From assembly GCA_945889445.1 (NCBI GenBank), contig CAMDBX010000023.1, forward strand, positions 1 to 46,843: 46,843 nt of DNA, written 5' to 3'. The notes under the pieces are model-generated. The model worked only from the letters and a program-made list of their open reading frames with translations, was not told the origin of the DNA and ran no database searches. The position numbers and the translations under genes are program-made. Below, piece after piece: positions 4,649 to 46,742 of the stretch. The stretch is from Rhizobium sp. Q54. Its GTDB lineage: Bacteria > Pseudomonadota > Alphaproteobacteria > Rhizobiales > Aestuariivirgaceae. The first letter of the stretch is position 1. Each line of letters opens with the position of its first letter.

Positions 4649-7600
4649 ATGCCGTCCTTTCGCAAGATCCTGATCGCCAATCGCGGCGAAATCGCCATCC
4701 GCGTCATGCGCGCGGCAACCGAGCTCGGCAAGAAGACGGTGGCCGTCTATGCCGAGGAGGACAAGCTGTCGCTCCACCGCTTCAAGGCGGACGAGGCCTA
4801 TCGCATCGGCGAGGGGCTGGGGCCGGTCGCGGCCTATCTCTCGATCCCCGAGATCATCCGGGTGGCCAAGGCCTGCGGCGCCGATGCGATCCACCCGGGC
4901 TATGGGTTGCTGTCCGAGAATCCGGATTTCGTCGAGGCCTGCGTCGCGGCAGGCATCACCTTCATCGGTCCCAAGGCGGAAACAATGCGCGCGCTGGGCG
5001 ACAAGGCGAGTGCGAGGCGCGTGGCAATCGCCGCCGGCGCTCCTGTGATCCCGGCGACCGAGGTGCTGGGCGACGACATGGACGCCGTCGCGCGTGATGC
5101 GGCCGCCATCGGCTATCCGCTCATGCTCAAGGCCAGCTGGGGCGGCGGCGGGCGCGGCATGCGGCCGATCAACGGCCCTGATGAACTCGTGGCCAAGGTG
5201 CTGGAGGGCCGCCGCGAGGCGCAGTCCGCCTTCGGCAATGGCGAGGGCTATCTCGAGAAGATGATCGAGCGGGCGCGCCACGTCGAGGTGCAGATCCTCG
5301 GCGACAAGTATGGCGCGATCTATCATCTCTATGAGCGTGACTGCACCGTGCAGCGCCGCAACCAGAAGGTCGTCGAGCGCGCGCCAGCGCCCTACCTGAA
5401 CGAGGCCCAGCGCGCCGAGATCTGCGATCTCGGTCGCCGCATCTGCGCCCATGTGGGCTATGAATGCGCCGGCACGGTCGAGTTCCTGATGGACATGGAC
5501 AGCGGCCGCTTCTACTTCATCGAGGTCAACCCGCGCGTCCAGGTCGAGCATACGGTGACCGAGCAGGTGACCGGCATCGACATCGTGCGGGCCCAGATCC
5601 TCATTGCCGAAGGCAAGACGCTGGAAGAAGCCACGGGTGTTGCCACCCAGCAGGGCGTGCGCCTCTACGGCCACGCGCTGCAATGCCGGGTGACGACGGA
5701 AGACCCGCAGAACAACTTCATTCCCGATTATGGCCGCATCACTGCCTATCGCTCGGCCACCGGCATGGGCATCAGGCTCGATGGCGGCACGGCCTATGCG
5801 GGTGCCGTCATCACCAGGTTCTACGACTCGCTGCTGGTCAAGGTCACCGCCTGGGCGCAGACGCCCGACCAGGCGATTGCCCGCATGAGCCGCGCCCTGT
5901 CCGAGTTTCGCGTGCGCGGCGTTGCCACCAACATCGCCTTCGTCGAGAACCTGCTGAAGCACCCGAGCTTCCTCGAAAACAGCTGCACCACGAAGTTCAT
6001 CGACACCACGCCAGCACTCTTCGAGTTCAAGAAGCGCCGCGACCGCGCAACCAAGATCCTCACCTACATCGCCGACATCGCGGTGAACGGGCACCCTGAA
6101 ACCGCGGGCCGCCCGAAGCCCAAGGTCACCGGCCGGGAACTGGGCGTGCCCGGGCTGATGGGCCCGCCGCAGCCGGGCACGCGCGACCTGCTTCTCGCCA
6201 AGGGCCCCCAGGCGGTGGCCAACTGGATGCTGGGCGAGAAGCGGCTGCTGCTCACCGACACGACGATGCGTGACGGCCACCAGTCGCTGCTGGCAACTCG
6301 CATGCGCTCGATCGACATGATCCGGGTGGCTCCGGCCTATGCGGCCAATCTGCCCCAACTGTTCAGCGTCGAATGCTGGGGTGGTGCCACCTTCGACGTC
6401 GCCTACCGCTTCCTGCAGGAGTGCCCCTGGCAGCGCCTGCGCGACTTGCGCGAACGCATGCCGAACCTGATGCTGCAGATGCTGCTGCGTGGTGCCAATG
6501 GCGTCGGCTACACCACTTACCCTGACAATGTGGTCAAGGCCTTCGTGGCGCAGGCCGCCAGGACCGGCATCGACGTGTTCCGCGTCTTCGACAGCCTGAA
6601 CTGGGTCGAGAACATGCGCGTCGCCATGGATGCGGTGCTGGAGGCCAATCGCGTCTGCGAGGCGGCCATCTGCTACACCGGCGACATCCTCGATCCGAAC
6701 CGTGCCAAGTATGACCTCAAATACTATGTCGGCATGGCGAAGGAATTGCAGGCCGCCGGCGCGCATGTGCTCGGGTTGAAGGACATGGCCGGCCTGCTGA
6801 AGCCCGCCGCCGCCCGGCTCCTCGTCAGGACACTGAAGGAGGAGGTGGGCCTTCCCATCCACTTCCACACCCACGACACCAGCGGCATCGCAGGGGCCAG
6901 CGTGCTCGCCGCCGCCGAGGCCGGTGCGGATGCGGTGGATGCCGCGATGGATGCCTTCTCGGGCGGTACCTCGCAGCCCTGCCTCGGCTCCATCGTGGAG
7001 GCGTTGGCGCATACCGACCGCGACACCGGGCTCGATGCTTCCGCCATCCGCGCCATCTCGAACTACTGGGAGGGCGTGCGCCACCAGTATGCGGCCTTCG
7101 AGAGCGGAATCGAGGCACCTGCCTCCGAGGTTTATCTCCACGAAATGCCCGGCGGCCAGTTCACCAACCTCAAGGCCCAGGCCCGCAGCATGGGGCTCGA
7201 GCCACGCTGGCATGAGGTGGCTGAGGCCTATGCCCAGGCCAACCTGATGTTCGGCGACATCGTGAAGGTGACGCCGTCATCGAAGGTGGTGGGCGACATG
7301 GCGTTGATGATGGTGGCGCAGGGGCTGACGCGCCAGCAGGTCGAGGATCCGGCCGTCGATGTCTCCTTCCCGGACTCCGTGGTCGACATGTTGAAGGGCA
7401 ATCTCGGCCAGCCTCCCGGCGGCTGGCCCCAGGCGCTCCAGCGCAAGGCGCTCAAGGGTGAGAAACCCGTCACCGTGCGGCCCGGTTCGCTGGTGCCGTC
7501 CGTCGACCTCGACGAGACGCGCCTCACCCTGTCGAAGACCCTCAAGGGCCGCCCGGTCGATAGCGAGGACCTCAACGGCTATCTCATGTATCCGAAGGTC

Positions 7601-34282: not shown

Positions 34283-34343
34283 TCATTGAACTGATCATCC
34301 ACCAAGATCTCGAGAGTGAACCCCGGCAGATGTTCCACGCGGC

Positions 34344-34700
34344 ATGATCATTCTCGACAACGTCATCACGGACCGAGGTTCGAAATATGCCGTCTCGGGC
34401 GGGCCATGCCGATCCGGTGACGAGGCCCGAACGTTTCTGGCTGAATTGAAACGCAACAAGAAGTTTGCCAAAGCCACGCATAATTCCTGGGGCCTCATCT
34501 GTGGCGACCAGATGATCAAGAACGATGACGGCGAGGCCGGCGCCGGCATGGTGATACTCCGCATGCTCGAAAGAGAGGGACTGCGGGACCATATCGTCGT
34601 GGTCACGAGGTGGTTCGGCGGCAAGCACCTCGGCGGCGACCGCTTTCGCCATGTGCAGGAAGCGGTGAGAACCTACATCAGGGCGTTGTCAGCCTCCTGA
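34344..34700 (+). CDS. IMPACT/YigZ N-terminal-domain protein (UPF0029)
   Basis: A 118-residue protein made only of the Impact_N domain: SKYAVSGGPCRSGDEARTFL, ELKRNKKFAKATHNSWG, KNDDGEAGAGMVILRMLE and VVVTRWFGGKHLGGDRFRHV. These Asp-Gly-Glu and RWFGGKxLG segments are the family core. Full YigZ proteins have a second ferredoxin-like domain that is absent here. Homologues touch translation control, but this short form is uncharacterised. A decayed duplicate lies at 40612-40830, with the same 116-bp distance to an upstream repeat. No clear ribosome site precedes the ATG. Confidence 0.88.
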   Translation: MIILDNVITDRGSKYAVSGGPCRSGDEARTFLAELKRNKKFAKATHNSWGLICGDQMIKNDDGEAGAGMVILRMLEREGLRDHIVVVTRWFGGKHLGGDRFRHVQEAVRTYIRALSAS

Positions 34701-40550: not shown

Positions 40551-40611
40551 TCGTCATCCTGATCGTCCAAGAAGAGTGCCTGTTTGAAACACGACAGATT
40601 CTGCATGTTGA

Positions 40612-40830
40612 GTGATCATTCTCGACATCGTCATTGTCAATCGAGGCTCGAAACATGCCGTCTCGGGCGCAGCATGCCGCTCTCGTCAAGAACCCCGGGA
40701 CTTTCTGGTCAAACTGAAGCGCAAAGAGAGATTTTCCAGGGCAATGCACAATTCGTGAGGGCTCATCTGCGGCGAGCAGGTGACAAAGGACGATGACAGA
40801 AAGGTCGGAGTTGGCATGGCGAGACTTACG
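40612..40830 (+). pseudogene. Decayed duplicate of the YigZ-like gene
   Basis: Reading from GTG 40612, the translation VIILDIVIVNRGSKHAVSGA, then ACRSRQEPRDFLVKLKRK and RAMHNS aligns codon by codon with the intact gene at 34344. At codon 49 a TGA (40756-40758) replaces the Trp of HNSWG. The frame resumes GLICGEQVTKDDD and breaks off after GVGMA; the RWFGGKHLG half is absent. No frameshift precedes the break. It is a nonsense-mutated, 3'-truncated copy. Too damaged to encode a functional protein. Confidence 0.85.
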
Positions 40831-41480: not shown

Positions 41481-41594
41481 GTGCAGAATCGTGTCGTGCG
41501 GAATAGAGTCGCCGAGAACTCAATGTAGGTCGAATCTTGGGAGATGACTCGCGCGTAAGTGCCTGGCATCTGCGATTCTTCAATAAGTTGCTGT

Positions 41595-41650
41595 GAGTCA
41601 AAGACCCTCCCTTCCTCAAGCCACCCGGCTTGTCTCAGGAGTGCTGCCTC
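41595..41650 (+). repeat. Second repeat type, copy a
   Basis: Contains CCCTTCCTCAAGCCACCCGG followed by CTTGTCTCAGGAGTGCTG. It aligns along its length with 42004-42058, differing at scattered bases. A short matching stretch continues upstream (TTCTTCAATAAGTT against TTCTTCCAAGAGTT). Confidence 0.6.
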
Positions 41651-41839
41651 CCGCTACTGGATGCGCCAGATCCTCAATACAATCGCGCACCCCAAAGCCT
41701 TCAAATTGTCTGATGACGGACGGTACGTCTGCATTCAAAGCGAAAGTTCATTTACCGGCTGTCGTTGCTGGCAATTGGACGTTACCTGCACGCCGAATCT
41801 GTCCGCGGGCGAACGCAAATCTCTAACTGATTGAAGTCA

Positions 41840-41894
41840 ATGGCGCACCATGCGGAATACATATCGGAAATCGTATGTTGTTGAAGTAGATGTT
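41840..41894 (+). repeat. Dispersed repeat copy 4
   Basis: Begins ATGGCGCACCATGCGGAAT, exactly as copy 2, then ACATATCGGAAATCGTATGT and TGTTGAAGTAGATG. Read as a frame it gives a 14-residue peptide beginning MAHHAEYISEI. It precedes copy b of the second repeat. Confidence 0.55.
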
Positions 41895-42003
41895 TAAAAC
41901 AAATCCGGCCATCGGCTCGAGATCGACTATCGAATACTTCGCTATTGCTTTCGCGACGGTCTCGTCAGGTGGCTGGCGGGTTCGTTCTTCCAAGAGTTAC
42001 GAT

Positions 42004-42058
42004 GAGCCAGAAAGCCACCCTTCCTTAAGTTACCCGAATTGTCTCAGGGGTGCTGTCG
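42004..42058 (+). repeat. Second repeat type, copy b
   Basis: Contains CCCTTCCTTAAGTTACCCGA followed by ATTGTCTCAGGGGTGCTG, the counterpart of copy a about 410 bp upstream. The divergence suggests an old tandem duplication. Confidence 0.6.
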
Positions 42059-42289
42059 CAGGACACGGCGGAGGCTTCGTGACGATCTGCTCGGCCCCCG
42101 ACCCCCACTTCGGCATCAGCCATCTACTTTCCAGACCATCTTCCCTCAGTTCGCCTGGTTCGGAAAATGCCGATCAGGTCAAAAGCACGAGAGAATCTAT
42201 CCTTCTTGCATCACACGAAACACTTGAAGCGCAGTGCCCGTCCAAGGCACCAGCCGTGCGGGATTCCGCAATTGAATATGTACCTTTAC

Positions 42290-42318
42290 TTAGTCTGGCT
42301 TAGTCAGCTCGGTATTAT
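42290..42318 (+). promoter_or_regulatory. Candidate promoter of the six-gene operon
   Basis: TTAGTC at 42290-42295, a 17-bp spacer, and TATTAT at 42313-42318 resemble a sigma-70-type promoter. CTTAGTC is repeated at a 10-bp interval within it, which could be an operator. The leader to ATG 42424 would be about 100 nt. Confidence 0.4.
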
Positions 42319-42423
42319 GAATATTGTCATTTTCTCTGAACATTGTTTTGGATAAGACCTCGATCGTGTCTATCGAATCGAAGCGGGCTTCGGTTTTTAT
42401 TTCCGATGAGAAACGAGACAGTA

Positions 42424-43596
42424 ATGACGCATTCCGAAGTAATGTCCCAGCCGACCGAAGAAACGTCGAGGCAGGCACCCCTCCGCAGCGGGAACAAGCG
42501 CGGCACGCTCGCCCTGCTGTTGTCGGTTATCGCTCTTGGCCTGCTGTTCTATCCAGCTATTCGGCAGGGCGTCATCACGGTGGCGGGACCCCAGCGCTGG
42601 CTTCCTGCTCAGCTTCCCTATGTTAGCCGGCTTCCCGCCGGTCCTGATGCAAAGTTGCTGGCCGCGGATCTGGCCGGTTCAGTGTCAGTGCTCGAGGAAC
42701 AGTTAGCCAATCTGGAAGCTTCGATTGCAGAGCTGCGCGAGGCTGCAGCAGCCAATACCGATGCGGCAAGCATTCAGGCGCTCGAGCAGAGGTTGATCGG
42801 CCTAAAGGACCAGTTCGTGGCCCTGGATGCACGCGACGCCACCTCGGATGTTGAGGTGAGAAACCAGTTCTCGCAGTTAGACCGGCGGCTTGCAGACTTG
42901 GCGAACACCGATGCAGCAGGCATTCAAATGCTCGAACAGAGGTTGACCGGCCTCAAGGACCAGTTCGTGGCGCTGGACGCTCGCGACGCCACCTCGGATG
43001 TGGCGTTGAAAAACCAGATATCGAAACTCGACCAGCGGCTGGCAGACACGGCCGCGCCCGAGATGGCGTCCTTGTTGGCGGCCCGGCTTGCGCTGCTGTC
43101 GATAAGTCGTGGCCTCCGCCCCGATGACCTCGACGCCATTACGGCAGCGGCCGCGGCAGACCCCGCCATGTCGGACATTGTCGCCAAACTTAAAGTGCTG
43201 GCCGAACAGAACATACCGCCTACAAGCCTGCTACGGGAGCGTTTCCCTGCCCTCGCGCACACGGCCCTGCGGCAAGCAACACGTGAGCAGCTGGGTTGGT
43301 GGGATTCGAGTGTCTTCGCAGTCCGGTCCTCTCTGTCGGACCTGGGTGTCGGCGTTGGCGCGGATGAGAGCAAGGATTCGCTGGTGATCGACGAGGCCAA
43401 CAAGCAACTGGATCTCGGGCGGCTGCAACAGGCGCTCTTCGAGATCGACGGCGGCAGCCCGGAACTGAAGTCAATTCTATCGGGATGGATCAATGACGCC
43501 AGGCAGCGGCTGGCGATTGACGATGGCCTGCTGCAACTCGTAAACCTGCTGCTGATGCGCGTCACGACGACTTCCGCTGCGGCCGGGGCAGGCTGA
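42424..43596 (+). CDS. Mic60/mitofilin-like coiled-coil inner-membrane protein
   Basis: About 390 residues, first gene of a tight operon. A short cytoplasmic N-terminus is followed by one helix (TLALLLSVIALGLLFYPAI), then a long coiled coil with two nearly identical 50-residue repeats, and a helical C-terminal domain (LAARLALLSISRGLRPDDLD, VLAEQNIPPTSLLRERFPAL, LGRLQQALFEIDG). This layout and the C-terminal pattern resemble alphaproteobacterial Mic60-like proteins, which shape the inner membrane. Usual Mic60 genes neighbour heme biosynthesis genes; here it lies beside unknown membrane proteins. Start is uncertain among ATG 42406, 42424 and 42442. Family call is by eye, moderately sure. Confidence 0.7.
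   Translation: MTHSEVMSQPTEETSRQAPLRSGNKRGTLALLLSVIALGLLFYPAIRQGVITVAGPQRWLPAQLPYVSRLPAGPDAKLLAADLAGSVSVLEEQLANLEASIAELREAAAANTDAASIQALEQRLIGLKDQFVALDARDATSDVEVRNQFSQLDRRLADLANTDAAGIQMLEQRLTGLKDQFVALDARDATSDVALKNQISKLDQRLADTAAPEMASLLAARLALLSISRGLRPDDLDAITAAAAADPAMSDIVAKLKVLAEQNIPPTSLLRERFPALAHTALRQATREQLGWWDSSVFAVRSSLSDLGVGVGADESKDSLVIDEANKQLDLGRLQQALFEIDGGSPELKSILSGWINDARQRLAIDDGLLQLVNLLLMRVTTTSAAAGAG
42754..43053 (+). repeat. 150-bp in-frame tandem duplication
   Basis: Copy one is 42754-42903 and copy two 42904-43053, each encoding 50 residues beginning NTDAA and including GLKDQFVALDARDATSDV. Most differences are synonymous or conservative. The unit lengthens the coiled coil by about 50 residues. 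Confidence 0.9.
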
Positions 43597-43605
43597 CGAC
43601 AAGTT

Positions 43606-44556
43606 GTGGCACGGTGCAATCTATTTCTGGCATCAGTCACCGTGGTCTTCATACGGTGCTGCCCGGCCGCGCTTCTCGCGCTGGCCTGGCTGCTCACAGC
43701 CGGCGTGGTGGCACCGGCCCGGGCGGACGACGCGCTGCTGTCGCAGGATGTTTCGGCACTCTTCGCGGCGCGGACGGCACGGATAGGCCCGTATGTGGCC
43801 TGGACTTACGACTGGGCAACGAGCTACGCCAATTCCTATCGCGCTGCATTCCACGTCATACGGCATATACTAACCGCTCCGGCGGGACAGCGCGGCGACG
43901 TGCTCGGAGTGCTCCGCGCGTTGCAGCAACAATCATTGCGCCAGCGTGTGAGCCGGCCGGCAGAAGATGCCTACCAGATTGCACGACTGATCAACCGCCA
44001 CGCGGCCGCACGGCTGTATGTGCTGGCCGCCGAGGCGGTTGCAGCAGCTTGCACCGGCAGCACCTCCCAGTCTTGCATCAATCGGACGCTGCCGCAGCTA
44101 CAGGCTGCAAGTGCGGGCATCCTCGCAGCGCGCCGCGAGCCAGTCGCGCTGGCCAAGGAGGCGAGTGCGCTTCAGGACATTCTGGACATCAAGCAGATCG
44201 GCGACGTCGATGTGTTCCTCGCGGTACGCCCGCTCGCCACCCGCATTCTCGTGCTGATACTGCGCTTCACCGAGTTTGCTTCGATCATCCTCTTGGTGAC
44301 AGGCAGCCTCAGGCGCGTGTACGTGCCCGATACCGCCATCACACGATTTGCCGTGGCGATCGCCATCTCATGGTCGCTCGACTACGGGTTGTTGAGAGTG
44401 GAGCGGGCCTTCAACGAGGATTCGTTCCGCGCCAACCTCGAGGCGCAGGTCCGCGAGCAGGAAACCTCTGTGAACGACTACGTGAATGTGCTGATGCGCG
44501 GCTATGAGAGCAGTTTCCTTGCCGCTGCCCGGGTTGTGTTGAAGGAGCGAGACTGA
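43606..44556 (+). CDS. Unknown membrane protein, gene 2 of the operon
   Basis: A 316-residue protein from GTG 43606, 9 bp after the preceding gene. A signal-like segment (ALLALAWLLTAGVVAPARAD) is followed by a helical, probably periplasmic domain with two cysteines close together (CTGSTSQSC), then a hydrophobic helix near residues 205-230 (ILVLILRFTEFASIILLVTG) and a second near 245-260, then a charged C-terminus. No family recognised. A later GTG at 43642 would put the signal peptide closer to the N-terminus. It is surely co-expressed with its neighbours; a shared membrane complex is an inference. Confidence 0.75.
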   Translation: MARCNLFLASVTVVFIRCCPAALLALAWLLTAGVVAPARADDALLSQDVSALFAARTARIGPYVAWTYDWATSYANSYRAAFHVIRHILTAPAGQRGDVLGVLRALQQQSLRQRVSRPAEDAYQIARLINRHAAARLYVLAAEAVAAACTGSTSQSCINRTLPQLQAASAGILAARREPVALAKEASALQDILDIKQIGDVDVFLAVRPLATRILVLILRFTEFASIILLVTGSLRRVYVPDTAITRFAVAIAISWSLDYGLLRVERAFNEDSFRANLEAQVREQETSVNDYVNVLMRGYESSFLAAARVVLKERD

Positions 44557-44558
44557 CG

Positions 44559-44963
44559 GTGACCCCGAAGCTTCACCCGCTTGGATTGCTGGGACGAGTG
44601 GTCGGCGTGTCCGCCTTCGTCTGGCTGCTGCCGCCATTCGGCATATCGACGTTGCTGGTGTCCTCTGATGAGCAACAGATGCCGGCAGCCGTTTTCTTTA
44701 TCGCGCTCATCCTGCTGGCTTGTGCCCACTTGTACCTATTTAACCGCGCCTATTACGCGTTGCGGACCAACGGCATTCTCGTATTCACGATCGTCTACAT
44801 GTTGCTTGCCTACTTCATCATGGTATTTTTCCAGATCGAAGTGTCGATACTGAATGCAAGATGGAACGCAGCCGCTTACTTAACTCTCCTATATAGCTAT
44901 GGGCTCTGCTACAATTTCGTCGATTCGTTTCTATCGGGCCTTCTCCACACGAAGAGCGTTTAA
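44559..44963 (+). CDS. Small polytopic membrane protein, gene 3 of the operon
   Basis: A 134-residue protein from GTG 44559, two bases after the previous stop. It has about four hydrophobic helices (GVSAFVWLLPPFGISTLLVS, AAVFFIALILLACAHLYLFN, GILVFTIVYMLLAYFIMVFF, AAYLTLLYSYGLCYNFVDSF). No family recognised. Tight coupling with gene 2 suggests the two proteins are made together and may associate. Confidence 0.7.
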   Translation: MTPKLHPLGLLGRVVGVSAFVWLLPPFGISTLLVSSDEQQMPAAVFFIALILLACAHLYLFNRAYYALRTNGILVFTIVYMLLAYFIMVFFQIEVSILNARWNAAAYLTLLYSYGLCYNFVDSFLSGLLHTKSV

Positions 44964-44968
44964 GCCAA

Positions 44969-45826
44969 ATGAACCAGAACCATGCCGCGTCTCGTCAGTC
45001 TCCAGCCATTCTCGTGGTGAACTGTAGCGATTCCCGCCTGACCGCCGAAGATGCCTCTGCGTCATGGAAAACACGCCTGGGTTTTGATGGTGACATTTTT
45101 GAGGTAAGGTGCCCCGGCGGTGGGCTGGCCTTGGTGGACAGCGACAGCGCGTTCTACAAATCGGCCCTGGGAAGCTTCCAGCTGTTGAGCACCGGCCGAA
45201 ACTTCTCTCGCATCATTCTGGCCTTCCACCAAGACTGCGCCTATTTTCAGGAGAAATATGGCTCAAGCGGCGATCCCGCCGACGACGAGCAGCGCAAGTG
45301 GCAGCTGATCGAGCAGGCCACTCAAAAGGTGTCCGGGTGGGCTCGCGGCATTGCAATCCGCCCTCTATACCTGACCTTCGAGGAAAATGGCGATTGTCGC
45401 CACAGCGGCGCGGCGCGTGAGCCTGAGAGGCAGCCTGCCATGCCACCGCGGCCGACCACGACCGCAGTCGCGCGGCAGGAGCGGCGGTTTTCACCTGCCT
45501 CCGCCCTGAACCTGCGCAGCTACAACCGGATTGTTGAGGAAATGCTGATCACCGAGGGCCGCAGCGTCGAGGACGCCATTGCCCAGGCGGAGGACCAATC
45601 CGGGACCTTTGCCGGTGTTCCACCGTGGCAGGTCGAGCGGCAGGCAGGAGTGTTCCTCGATCTTCTAAAAGCCGGCGGCCGGACCAATCCGCAGGAATTA
45701 CGGCAGTTGGTTCGGGCATTCGTGCAAAACTATGCAGGCGATCAGGCCTCGAAACCATTGATCCGCAGTGTAATGAACGAGTTGAACGAAGTAATCGAGA
45801 CGGGCGCCAAGAGGCGCCTCGGATGA
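44969..45826 (+). CDS. Beta-carbonic-anhydrase-like domain fused to unknown C-terminal domain
   Basis: A 285-residue protein. The N-terminal 130 residues read like a divergent beta-carbonic anhydrase: VVNCSDSRLT with Cys19, Asp21, Arg23, then FEVRCPGGGLALVD, then FHQDC with His87 and Cys90. That is the full Cys-x-Asp-Ser-Arg plus His-x2-Cys zinc and Asp/Arg dyad set. The middle (about 140-170) is Pro/Thr/Arg-rich linker. The C-terminal part is helical and unrecognised (NRIVEEMLITEGRSVEDAIA, WQVERQAGVFLDLLKAGGRT). It sits after two membrane proteins with no good ribosome site. Activity could be carbonic anhydrase, or a related zinc role such as carbonyl sulfide or carbon disulfide hydrolysis; neither is shown. 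Confidence 0.65.
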   Translation: MNQNHAASRQSPAILVVNCSDSRLTAEDASASWKTRLGFDGDIFEVRCPGGGLALVDSDSAFYKSALGSFQLLSTGRNFSRIILAFHQDCAYFQEKYGSSGDPADDEQRKWQLIEQATQKVSGWARGIAIRPLYLTFEENGDCRHSGAAREPERQPAMPPRPTTTAVARQERRFSPASALNLRSYNRIVEEMLITEGRSVEDAIAQAEDQSGTFAGVPPWQVERQAGVFLDLLKAGGRTNPQELRQLVRAFVQNYAGDQASKPLIRSVMNELNEVIETGAKRRLG

Positions 45827-45855
45827 ATCAATTACGACTTAGTTAAGAGGCAGAC

Positions 45856-46314
45856 ATGCGGCAGGCATCGCAATACGGAATCAATCAGGACGAGCAATCG
45901 AGCCCGGGCGAGGAGCGGCTGCGTCAATTGGTACGGCTGCGTACCCAGCGTGGACGCGTTTTGACGACTGACGACGAAGACAAGCTACTCGAGGAGGCAG
46001 TCACCCGACTGGACGTATCTCTCAATCGCGCTCGCGGCGTGCTCTATGCCGAGATGCAGAATGGCAACATCGAACTCGAGACTGACATCGATGATAGGAT
46101 GCAGGAACTGGTGAAGTCCGTTGCGGACGCGAAAGGCCGGCTATCGCGCCGTGATTTCGAGCGGATCGCCATCTTCTACGCGTCGCGCTTCAAGATCCCG
46201 GTGGAAACCTGCCGCCAGAAGGTGAAGAAGATCATGGAGGATGAAGGCATTTCTCCGCAGCGCGCCGGTTTCATTCCGTCACGGAGTTGGTATAGGCGCA
46301 TCAAAGTAGCATGA
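45856..46314 (+). CDS. Small helical protein, paralogue A of a tandem pair
   Basis: A 152-residue protein with a GAGG ribosome site. Pattern: RLRQLVRLRTQRGRVLTTDD, then EDKLLEEAVTRLDVSLNRAR, an acidic linker, LSRRDFERIAIFYASRF, RQKVKKIMEDEGISPQRAG and SRSWYRRI. It aligns along its length with the next gene. Family not recognised; the LTxxEED and KKIM/RRVKQLIE helices suggest a small two-part helical protein. Basic C-terminus with WYRRI. It overlaps the next gene by 4 bp. Confidence 0.7.
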   Translation: MRQASQYGINQDEQSSPGEERLRQLVRLRTQRGRVLTTDDEDKLLEEAVTRLDVSLNRARGVLYAEMQNGNIELETDIDDRMQELVKSVADAKGRLSRRDFERIAIFYASRFKIPVETCRQKVKKIMEDEGISPQRAGFIPSRSWYRRIKVA

Positions 46315-46742
46315 GGATAGAAGGTCCAGTGCGAGGCGATCCCCAAGACAAGTTGCGGGAGTTGGTGCTTCTTTACAGTCAGCGCGACAAGGTACTGACG
46401 ACTGCGGAAGAGGACAGCATCGTCAATACAGCGGTCTCGGAATATGGTTTTACCGTGGGAGCAGCCCGTGCAATCGTCATCGCCACCGCGGCGGGTGCCG
46501 GTATCGAGGTCGAGGGTGATTATGAGGATGCTGCCAAAGCTATGCTTGTGGCATTGGGCGGAACCCGGAAGTTAATCAAGGCAGAGGACTTTGACCTGAT
46601 CGCTCAGTATTATCATGGAAAAAGCAAGCTGCCTCAGGACGAGGTTCGGCGGCGGGTGAAGCAACTGATCGAGAAGGCTGGTATCTCACCAGCGCCCAGA
46701 GGCATCTTTTTCTCTACGCGCTGGTTCCGGACGATCCGCTGA
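46311..46742 (+). CDS. Small helical protein, paralogue B of a tandem pair
   Basis: A 143-residue protein starting in the ATGA at 46311. It parallels the previous protein: DKLRELVLLYSQRDKVLTTA, EEDSIVNTAVSEYGF, an acidic YEDA segment, DFDLIAQYYHG, EVRRRVKQLIEKAGISPAPR and STRWFRTIR. Divergence is large apart from the LTT-EED, DF-IA-YY, RRVK-I, GISP and W-R-I positions, so the duplication is old or functionally constrained. It is the last gene of the operon; a weak hairpin follows. Confidence 0.7.
   Translation: MRIEGPVRGDPQDKLRELVLLYSQRDKVLTTAEEDSIVNTAVSEYGFTVGAARAIVIATAAGAGIEVEGDYEDAAKAMLVALGGTRKLIKAEDFDLIAQYYHGKSKLPQDEVRRRVKQLIEKAGISPAPRGIFFSTRWFRTIR

Follow-up and report, generated by a model that had tools for sequence, protein, structure and literature searches.

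Six genes at the end of a Rhizobium sp. Q54 contig encode a Mic60-like membrane protein (gene 1), two further membrane proteins (genes 2 and 3), a protein that resembles a carbonic anhydrase (gene 4) and two small helical proteins (genes 5 and 6), and the locus raises the question of what such parts would do together. Carbonic anhydrase (CA) is the enzyme that turns CO2 into bicarbonate. The window, which is the whole stretch of DNA analysed here, is the complete contig C23, which has 46,843 bases and belongs to a draft genome of 4.94 Mb. We compared the six genes with their relatives, and the comparison points to a reduced, compact form of a larger conserved alphaproteobacterial cluster that is apparently undescribed so far. 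We infer a joint function at the inner membrane and tentatively propose a small assembly there that would place CA at the cytoplasmic face of a specialised membrane patch. What the computation establishes is the gene families, their conserved clustering, the kept CA motifs and the fusion of one helical domain to two unrelated CA classes.

The same-genus genome G006 retains genes 1-4 in order, with identities of 32% (gene 1), 41% (gene 2), 42% (gene 3) and 50-56% (gene 4, partial). Since its contig ends inside gene 4, the exact six-gene set was observed in the window only. A search of a named genome collection with gene 2 confirmed three of 60 candidate stretches, which belong to G006, to Stella sp. 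ATCC 35155 (AP019701, G242) and to an Alphaproteobacteria metagenome-assembled genome (MAG; VGEN01000216, G902). In Stella, the helical gene, gene 2, gene 1 and DUF6524, the family that gene 3 resembles, follow one another on one strand, and a gene of a membrane family with the working name M217 lies on the opposite strand between the helical gene and gene 2. The G902 MAG holds gene 2, gene 1 and DUF6524 together with a fusion of CA and the helical domain. This retention of gene order in G006 and of parts of the cluster in distant families is evidence against a chance association.

We refer to the helical domain of genes 5 and 6 by the working name HEL. A HEL profile matched nine of 385 genomes of the class, nine of 36 in the order of G897, four of 43 in the order of Stella and one of four in the order of G840, counts that include the centre genomes. 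From the neighbourhoods read we tabulated 20 HEL-bearing units, which are not independent of each other (nine are from family f132 and four from f170). The HEL-bearing genomes span eight family codes (f1, f62, f77, f82, f93, f132, f160 and f170) plus the uncoded G902. In 19 of the 20 units, HEL and a DUF6524 gene are at most about 3.4 kb apart, centre to centre, the exception being the 8.7-kb contig of G127; after removal of the window and of G242, G111 and G096, which the DUF6524 search had also matched, the two are close in 15 of the 16 remaining units, which were identified through HEL or gene 2. By a rough estimate, genes placed at random in a 5-Mb genome would lie this close in ~0.1% of cases. 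DUF6524 alone is no marker of the cluster: among ten class genomes above its Pfam cut-off, HEL was near in three and not in seven of the stretches read.

Profiles placed M217 in 17 of the 20 units, gene 2 in 15, PHL in 15 and a fused ATPase-MlaE ATP-binding cassette (ABC) gene in 12, followed by P370 (10), ParA (10), TPR (7), a bestrophin-like gene (6), MlaA (4), a PstS-like gene (3) and a Na/Pi cotransporter (2). PHL and P370 are, like M217, working names for families without a Pfam match over the cut-off. The families of genes 1, 2, 3 and 5/6, together with a CA in the slot of gene 4, occur in the window, in G870, in G902 and in four f132 genomes (G911, G927, G928 and G929), and subsets recur in further families of the class. 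The original prediction had named co-occurrence in distant taxa as support for a system, and the association is indeed not confined to close relatives. We also observed that the genus g209, in the order of G897, comprises two nearly complete one-contig genomes of 1.5 Mb beside others of ~5 Mb; the small ones have no HEL match, and either reduced genomes or misfiling may explain this.

The CA slot itself is filled in two ways. In G902, a single protein carries a beta-CA domain with HEL behind it, and the same arrangement is found in G870, where it is cut by the contig end. Nine genomes of the order of G897 instead encode HEL followed by an NTF2-like domain of iota-type CA. All nine of these fusions contain HHSS, and all nine match TIGR02246 (SgcJ/EcaC), with one member below the family cut-off. 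According to PMC8425729 and PMC7191908, HHSS or (H)HHSS is the signature of iota-CA, and such proteins are usually annotated as SgcJ/EcaC. A profile of the nine fusions matched PDB entry 3h51 at an E value of 2.9e-27, the iota-CA 7c5x at 3.7e-9 over three short stretches, and ketosteroid isomerases at 5e-8 and weaker. The entry 3h51 was deposited as a CaMKII-association-domain protein and served as the template for a model of a bacterial iota-CA. The relatives' fusions thus resemble iota-CA (SgcJ/EcaC, NTF2-like fold) in their HHSS and PDB matches, and differ from it in that the domain is joined behind HEL in a conserved cluster. No iota-CA was found in the window.

In the HEL tree, the iota-fused domains form one group (93/90) that excludes the sole beta-fused HEL, a long branch of unsure place. 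Because the domain order is also reversed (beta-CA then HEL, versus HEL then iota-CA), we read the fusions as two separate CA recruitments. Both beta fusions adjoin DUF6524; the iota fusions lie at most 256 bp from it in seven of nine genomes, 5.4 kb away in G928 and on a different contig in G916. The fusion of two unrelated CA classes to HEL is the strongest sign in this analysis, and it suggests a demand for CA activity, and for CO2 hydration as such, at this site.

Gene 4 had been described as carrying a beta-CA-like domain, and this description is backed by its G902 counterpart, which passes the Pfam model Pro_CA_2 (PF20393) with 37.9 bits against a cut-off of 30. Residues C19, H87 and C90 as well as D21 and R23 are invariant in all five aligned rows, and Cys-His-Cys zinc ligands with an Asp-Arg dyad are what we take to be the beta-CA motif. 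In a scan of 3009 frames, taken from the window and the neighbourhoods, this pattern matched the four slot proteins only. The helical tail of gene 4 occupies the place of HEL in the G902 protein, and its helices are spaced like those of HEL in a weak model; in the window, HEL comes from genes 5 and 6 immediately downstream. Gene 4 shares the CxDxR and HxxC residues with beta-CA and has a relative above the Pro_CA_2 cut-off; unlike standard members, the CA is fused to or beside HEL and a Mic60-like gene, and the window copy itself scores below the cut-off, which is why we name it beta-CA-like. Among 61 genomes searched (its own, 36 of the genus and 24 of the order), gene 4 was found in its own and in G006. 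Five pattern matches in viral contigs yielded no confirmed relative of gene 4, and none was confirmed in plasmids.

The layout of the locus agrees with the earlier description of six same-direction genes with gaps of 9, 2, 5 and 29 bp and a final 4-bp overlap, between genes 5 and 6: all six reading frames are open at the coordinates listed in Table 1. Genes 2 and 3 start with GTG. When the six proteins were compared with Pfam, NCBIfam, PADLOC and PHROGs, nothing scored above a curated cut-off where a cut-off exists, and the useful sub-threshold matches were those of gene 3 to DUF6524 and of gene 4 to Pro_CA_2. Gene 6 ends 101 bases before the contig does, so the unit may extend further.

Table 1 Features of the locus, with positions in the window
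Feature	Position	Strand	Basis or description
Gene 1, Mic60/mitofilin-like inner-membrane protein, 390 aa	42424..43596	+	Alignments, hydrophobicity, Mitofilin match of Stella counterpart
In-frame tandem repeat in coiled-coil-like part of gene 1	42751..43047	+	150-bp unit; copies 42751-42897 and 42901-43047, 83% DNA identity over 147 bp
Gene 2, unnamed membrane family, 316 aa	43606..44556	+	Alignment, hydrophobicity; without Pfam match
Gene 3, DUF6524-like small membrane protein, 134 aa	44559..44963	+	Weak Pfam match, alignments with relatives
Gene 4, beta-CA-like domain (about residues 10-140) and helical tail (about 176-285)	44969..45826	+	Kept motifs, Pfam match of a relative, weak model
CxDxR motif of gene 4 CA domain (CSDSR)	45023..45037	+	Alignment, motif scan
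HxxC motif of gene 4 CA domain (HQDC)	45227..45238	+	Alignment, motif scan
Gene 5, HEL protein, 152 aa	45856..46314	+	Two similar-looking helical halves, conserved C-terminal W[YF]xxI end
Gene 6, HEL protein, 143 aa	46311..46742	+	Tandem paralogue of gene 5
Segment with a second copy on contig C249 (L010, 3391 bases)	44460..45816	+	Gene 2 end, gene 3, gene 4; 94.8% DNA identity

Genes 5 and 6 had been taken for paralogous small helical proteins, and identity, tree and model all confirm this: the two proteins are 33% identical (E 5e-24) and are sisters in the HEL tree (93/94), and a model built from 11 rows (predicted local distance difference test, pLDDT, 88.6) predicts two helical halves of similar appearance. 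HEL has no significant match in Pfam, NCBIfam, PADLOC or PHROGs. Against the PDB, the best match by sequence had an E value of 0.27 and the best by fold 1.7, neither significant, and no viral model matched at E <= 0.001. Two weak matches of the first HEL profile in a sample of the phylum (E 0.002-0.007) were set aside as chance: one covers 49 residues of a 278-aa protein without a Pfam family, and chosen frames on the contig of the other gave no HEL match. No hydrophobic segment in genes 4-6 passes the threshold used, so these three proteins are probably cytoplasmic.

Genes 2 and 3 were described as membrane proteins of no known kind, and both do carry hydrophobic segments, those of gene 2 lying near residues 6-24 and 201-232. 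Gene 2 belongs to a family without a name, in which the motif Y-x-x-W-x-Y-x-W-x-x-S-Y-x-x-S-Y is invariant in four of four aligned rows. Gene 3 matches Pfam DUF6524 (PF20134) at E 1.8e-4 with 21.7 bits, below the cut-off of 27, and aligns with its Stella counterpart, which scores 112.3 bits; we therefore call it DUF6524-like. At E 0.001, the Pfam DUF6524 model had no match in a search of the host genome. Among 249 genomes of the order, 29 others gave weak gene-2 matches (E 1e-5 to 6e-3), many of them longer (~450-530 aa), and the 13 neighbourhoods read contained nothing that matched the early profiles of genes 1, 3, 4 or 5/6; we took these matches for chance or for distant relatives outside the cluster. 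A further DUF6524-like gene (L120 2-484) is present in G840 downstream of its first cluster, near another phosphate-binding-like gene and an MlaE-type ABC gene.

The Mic60-like layout proposed for gene 1 is supported by its Stella counterpart, which passes the Pfam Mitofilin cut-off with 33.1 bits against 27.4; gene 1 itself has no Mitofilin match at E 1. The protein has a single N-terminal hydrophobic region (28-53), a middle that looks coiled-coil-like by eye and a conserved C-terminal part. It resembles alphaproteobacterial Mic60, the bacterial counterpart of the mitochondrial MICOS core subunit, in this N-terminal membrane segment, the coiled-coil-like middle and a putatively mitofilin-like C-terminal part, and cluster members of Stella and G840 exceed the Mitofilin cut-off. 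Canonical bacterial Mic60 is located at the haem-synthesis (hemD/hemY) locus, whereas gene 1 lies away from it and probably has different partners. The host's probable canonical gene is on contig C101 beside a HemY_N gene, and its protein has no Mitofilin match at E 0.01; given this candidate, gene 1 probably represents an additional paralogue. Apart from both, contig C168 (L113) carries a third Mic60-like gene, a short one of 215 aa, at 968-1615. G840 likewise encodes a HemD-mitofilin fusion protein outside its cluster. By the final profiles, 13 of the 20 HEL-bearing units contain a Mic60-like gene, with zero to two per unit.

Larger units add genes of Mla-type lipid-transport families and a possible anion channel. 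A fused ATPase-MlaE ABC gene lies a few kb from HEL in G096, G897 and others of f132 and ~15 kb away in G840. Pfam MlaE is above its cut-off in G897 and G096, and MlaA in G840 (144 bits), G111 (165) and G902 (110.5), with a short piece in G870 below it. P370, the partner of the fused ABC protein, gave no match to an MCE domain in the L084, L100 or L120 copies. At E 1e-40, a search for the fused ABC gene did not find it in the host genome, in G006 and two further members of the genus, in the two Stella-genus genomes covered, or in G902, G127 and G334; some of these genomes are incomplete. The likeness to Mla phospholipid transport (MlaE permease, MlaA lipoprotein) thus lies in the MlaE and MlaA families of the relatives; unlike in Mla, ATPase and permease are one protein, P370 lacks an MCE match and the fused ABC gene was not found in the genome of the window. 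The bestrophin-like gene passes the Pfam cut-off in G870, G127 and G897, and was detected by profile in G924, G926 and G916; in G006, a 79-aa piece upstream of gene 1 matches the profile (2e-17) without a Pfam match. Using one to three tblastn queries each, we found no relatives of bestrophin, M217, PHL, ParA, MlaA or the ABC protein in the window, C249 or C168; the search of the rest of the host genome covered the ABC, Mic60-like, HEL, gene 2, gene 4 and DUF6524 families. In units of relatives, the Pfam cut-off was also passed by individual proteins from three more families: Na/Pi, phosphate-binding-like and Mitofilin. An RND-type transporter (Pfam ACR_tran) and a HlyD-type partner lie near HEL and DUF6524 in G111 and G840 (L083 1654-7168, L101 381-8011).

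In the proposed assembly, gene 1 would be anchored by its one membrane segment, with the coiled coil predicted to be in the periplasm, and would shape or tether the patch. Genes 2 and 3 would form the membrane core of this putative complex. The HEL proteins may be cytoplasmic adaptors that dock CA, and gene 4 would be the enzyme whose predicted catalysis interconverts CO2 and bicarbonate beside the membrane. In some relatives, the bestrophin-like protein may carry bicarbonate or another anion, and the MlaE-type ABC protein and MlaA may handle lipids between the membranes. A more far-reaching and more doubtful possibility is that the cluster represents an undescribed inorganic-carbon machine, in which HEL, as a new adaptor domain, docks a CA recruited independently from the beta and iota classes onto an inner-membrane patch of Mic60 paralogue, DUF6524 and gene-2 protein; in its larger versions, a bestrophin-like channel and a lipid transporter of MlaE/MlaA type would be coupled to it. 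Such a machine would be similar in idea to the algal CO2-concentrating mechanisms with bestrophin and CA at one membrane (PMC6708349); it would differ in being bacterial and in using PF14023 instead of algal BST, with putative transport.

Several observations weigh against a CA-placing assembly. In eight of the 20 units (four Stella-genus genomes, G840, G111, G096 and the short contig of G127), the sequence read around the cluster revealed no CA domain, so CA is no universal part of the cluster. Likewise, seven of the 20 lack a Mic60-like gene at the threshold used, including G897, which had earlier shown weak matches, and tblastn found no bestrophin-like gene in the window. Gene 4 remains below the Pfam CA cut-offs (Pro_CA_2, 16.6 bits against 30; Pro_CA, 13.0 against 25.7), its model is weak (pLDDT 56), and the top Foldseek match, the beta-CA 6gwu at E 9.3e-4, is almost equalled by RadA-type folds. 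Sequence comparison does not support its tail as a HEL domain, with an hhalign probability of 2% and equally high scores in 198 of 2000 shuffles. The docking role of HEL is a guess from fusion and adjacency. The iota fusions keep HHSS, and their alignment has invariant Thr and Tyr columns, whose correspondence to the AspCA residues given as catalytic in PMC8425729 (Thr106, Tyr124 and Ser199) is putative.

The main rival is an envelope lipid-trafficking or membrane-contact system composed of the MlaE-type ABC protein, MlaA, Mic60-like tethers and HEL, DUF6524 and M217, in which CA would have a side function or adjust pH in some lineages. The ATPase-MlaE fusion in 12 of the 20 units and the MlaA genes above the Pfam cut-off in G840, G111 and G902 speak for such a system, as do the occurrence of up to two Mic60-like genes per unit and the clusters of Stella, G840, G111 and G096 without CA. 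However, the fused ABC gene was not found in the host genome, G006 or G902, where CA does occur, and two apparently independent CA recruitments fit poorly with a side function; we consider lipid trafficking less likely than a CA-placing assembly as the primary role. That two CA classes have been joined to a single adaptor domain, and that gene 4 shows slight resemblance to standard CAs, would also suit a complex that senses CO2, bicarbonate or pH, with the CA-like domain binding bicarbonate without fast turnover and HEL relaying the signal to a membrane complex such as the bestrophin-like channel or the ParA ATPase. The metal-ligand and dyad positions are nevertheless all kept, and we recognised nothing in the cluster that could serve as a signalling output domain, which makes sensing improbable.

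The same locus could be taken for an accessory island of unrelated genes that became adjacent by accident in this genus. The gene-4 family occurs in just two of the 37 genus genomes searched, the host included, and the operon is situated where the contig ends, has a gene-poor stretch as its neighbour and is partly duplicated elsewhere in the genome. The same families cluster, however, in most of the eight coded HEL-bearing families and in the uncoded MAG; these conserved neighbourhoods largely refute an accidental island, to which we assign very little weight. Two specific kinds of mobile or accessory system were rejected as well. PADLOC gave no convincing match to an anti-phage defence system (best LeoA, gene 5, E 0.0044, 14.2 bits), and PHROG matches that might indicate a phage or plasmid origin were weak, the best (E 0.0015) falling on the coiled-coil-like part of gene 1.

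Hypotheses on the origin of mitochondrial cristae from alphaproteobacterial membranes give Mic60 a central place, and to our knowledge few bacterial partners of Mic60-like proteins have been identified. The cluster offers candidate partners that are conserved across families of the class, with CA as a natural assay handle, and HEL adds a domain that is modelled with confidence and to which the searched libraries offered no significant match. It raises the question of whether a Mic60 paralogue builds a membrane patch for CO2/bicarbonate or lipid exchange. If the more far-reaching inorganic-carbon machine exists, it would be a bacterial membrane microdomain that links membrane architecture with CO2/bicarbonate chemistry. 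Among open-licence papers, we found none on DUF6524 or on Mic60/mitofilin with CA, MlaA or MlaE in such a gene cluster, and a description elsewhere is possible; among the titles and abstracts screened on Mic60 and intracytoplasmic membranes in Alphaproteobacteria, none dealt with such a cluster.

The second, truncated copy on C249 follows genes for a sodium:dicarboxylate symporter and a solute-binding protein, and the contig ends three codons short of the end of gene 4, so that genes 5-6 may represent repeats that were collapsed during assembly. The region next to gene 1 had been called decayed and repeat-rich, which is a fair description: 41481-42423 contains only short frames and two 71-nt repeats of 76% identity. 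Two + strand frames within it (137 and 91 aa) have no Pfam match. Part of this gene-poor stretch (42074-42181) recurs at 3877-3984 of C168 (108 bp, 82% identity). Further upstream, the window holds a 268-bp direct repeat (34291-34558 and 40559-40826, 71% identity), and C168 itself carries tandem repeats of ~125 bp at 5075-5915, within a large frame for a repetitive protein.

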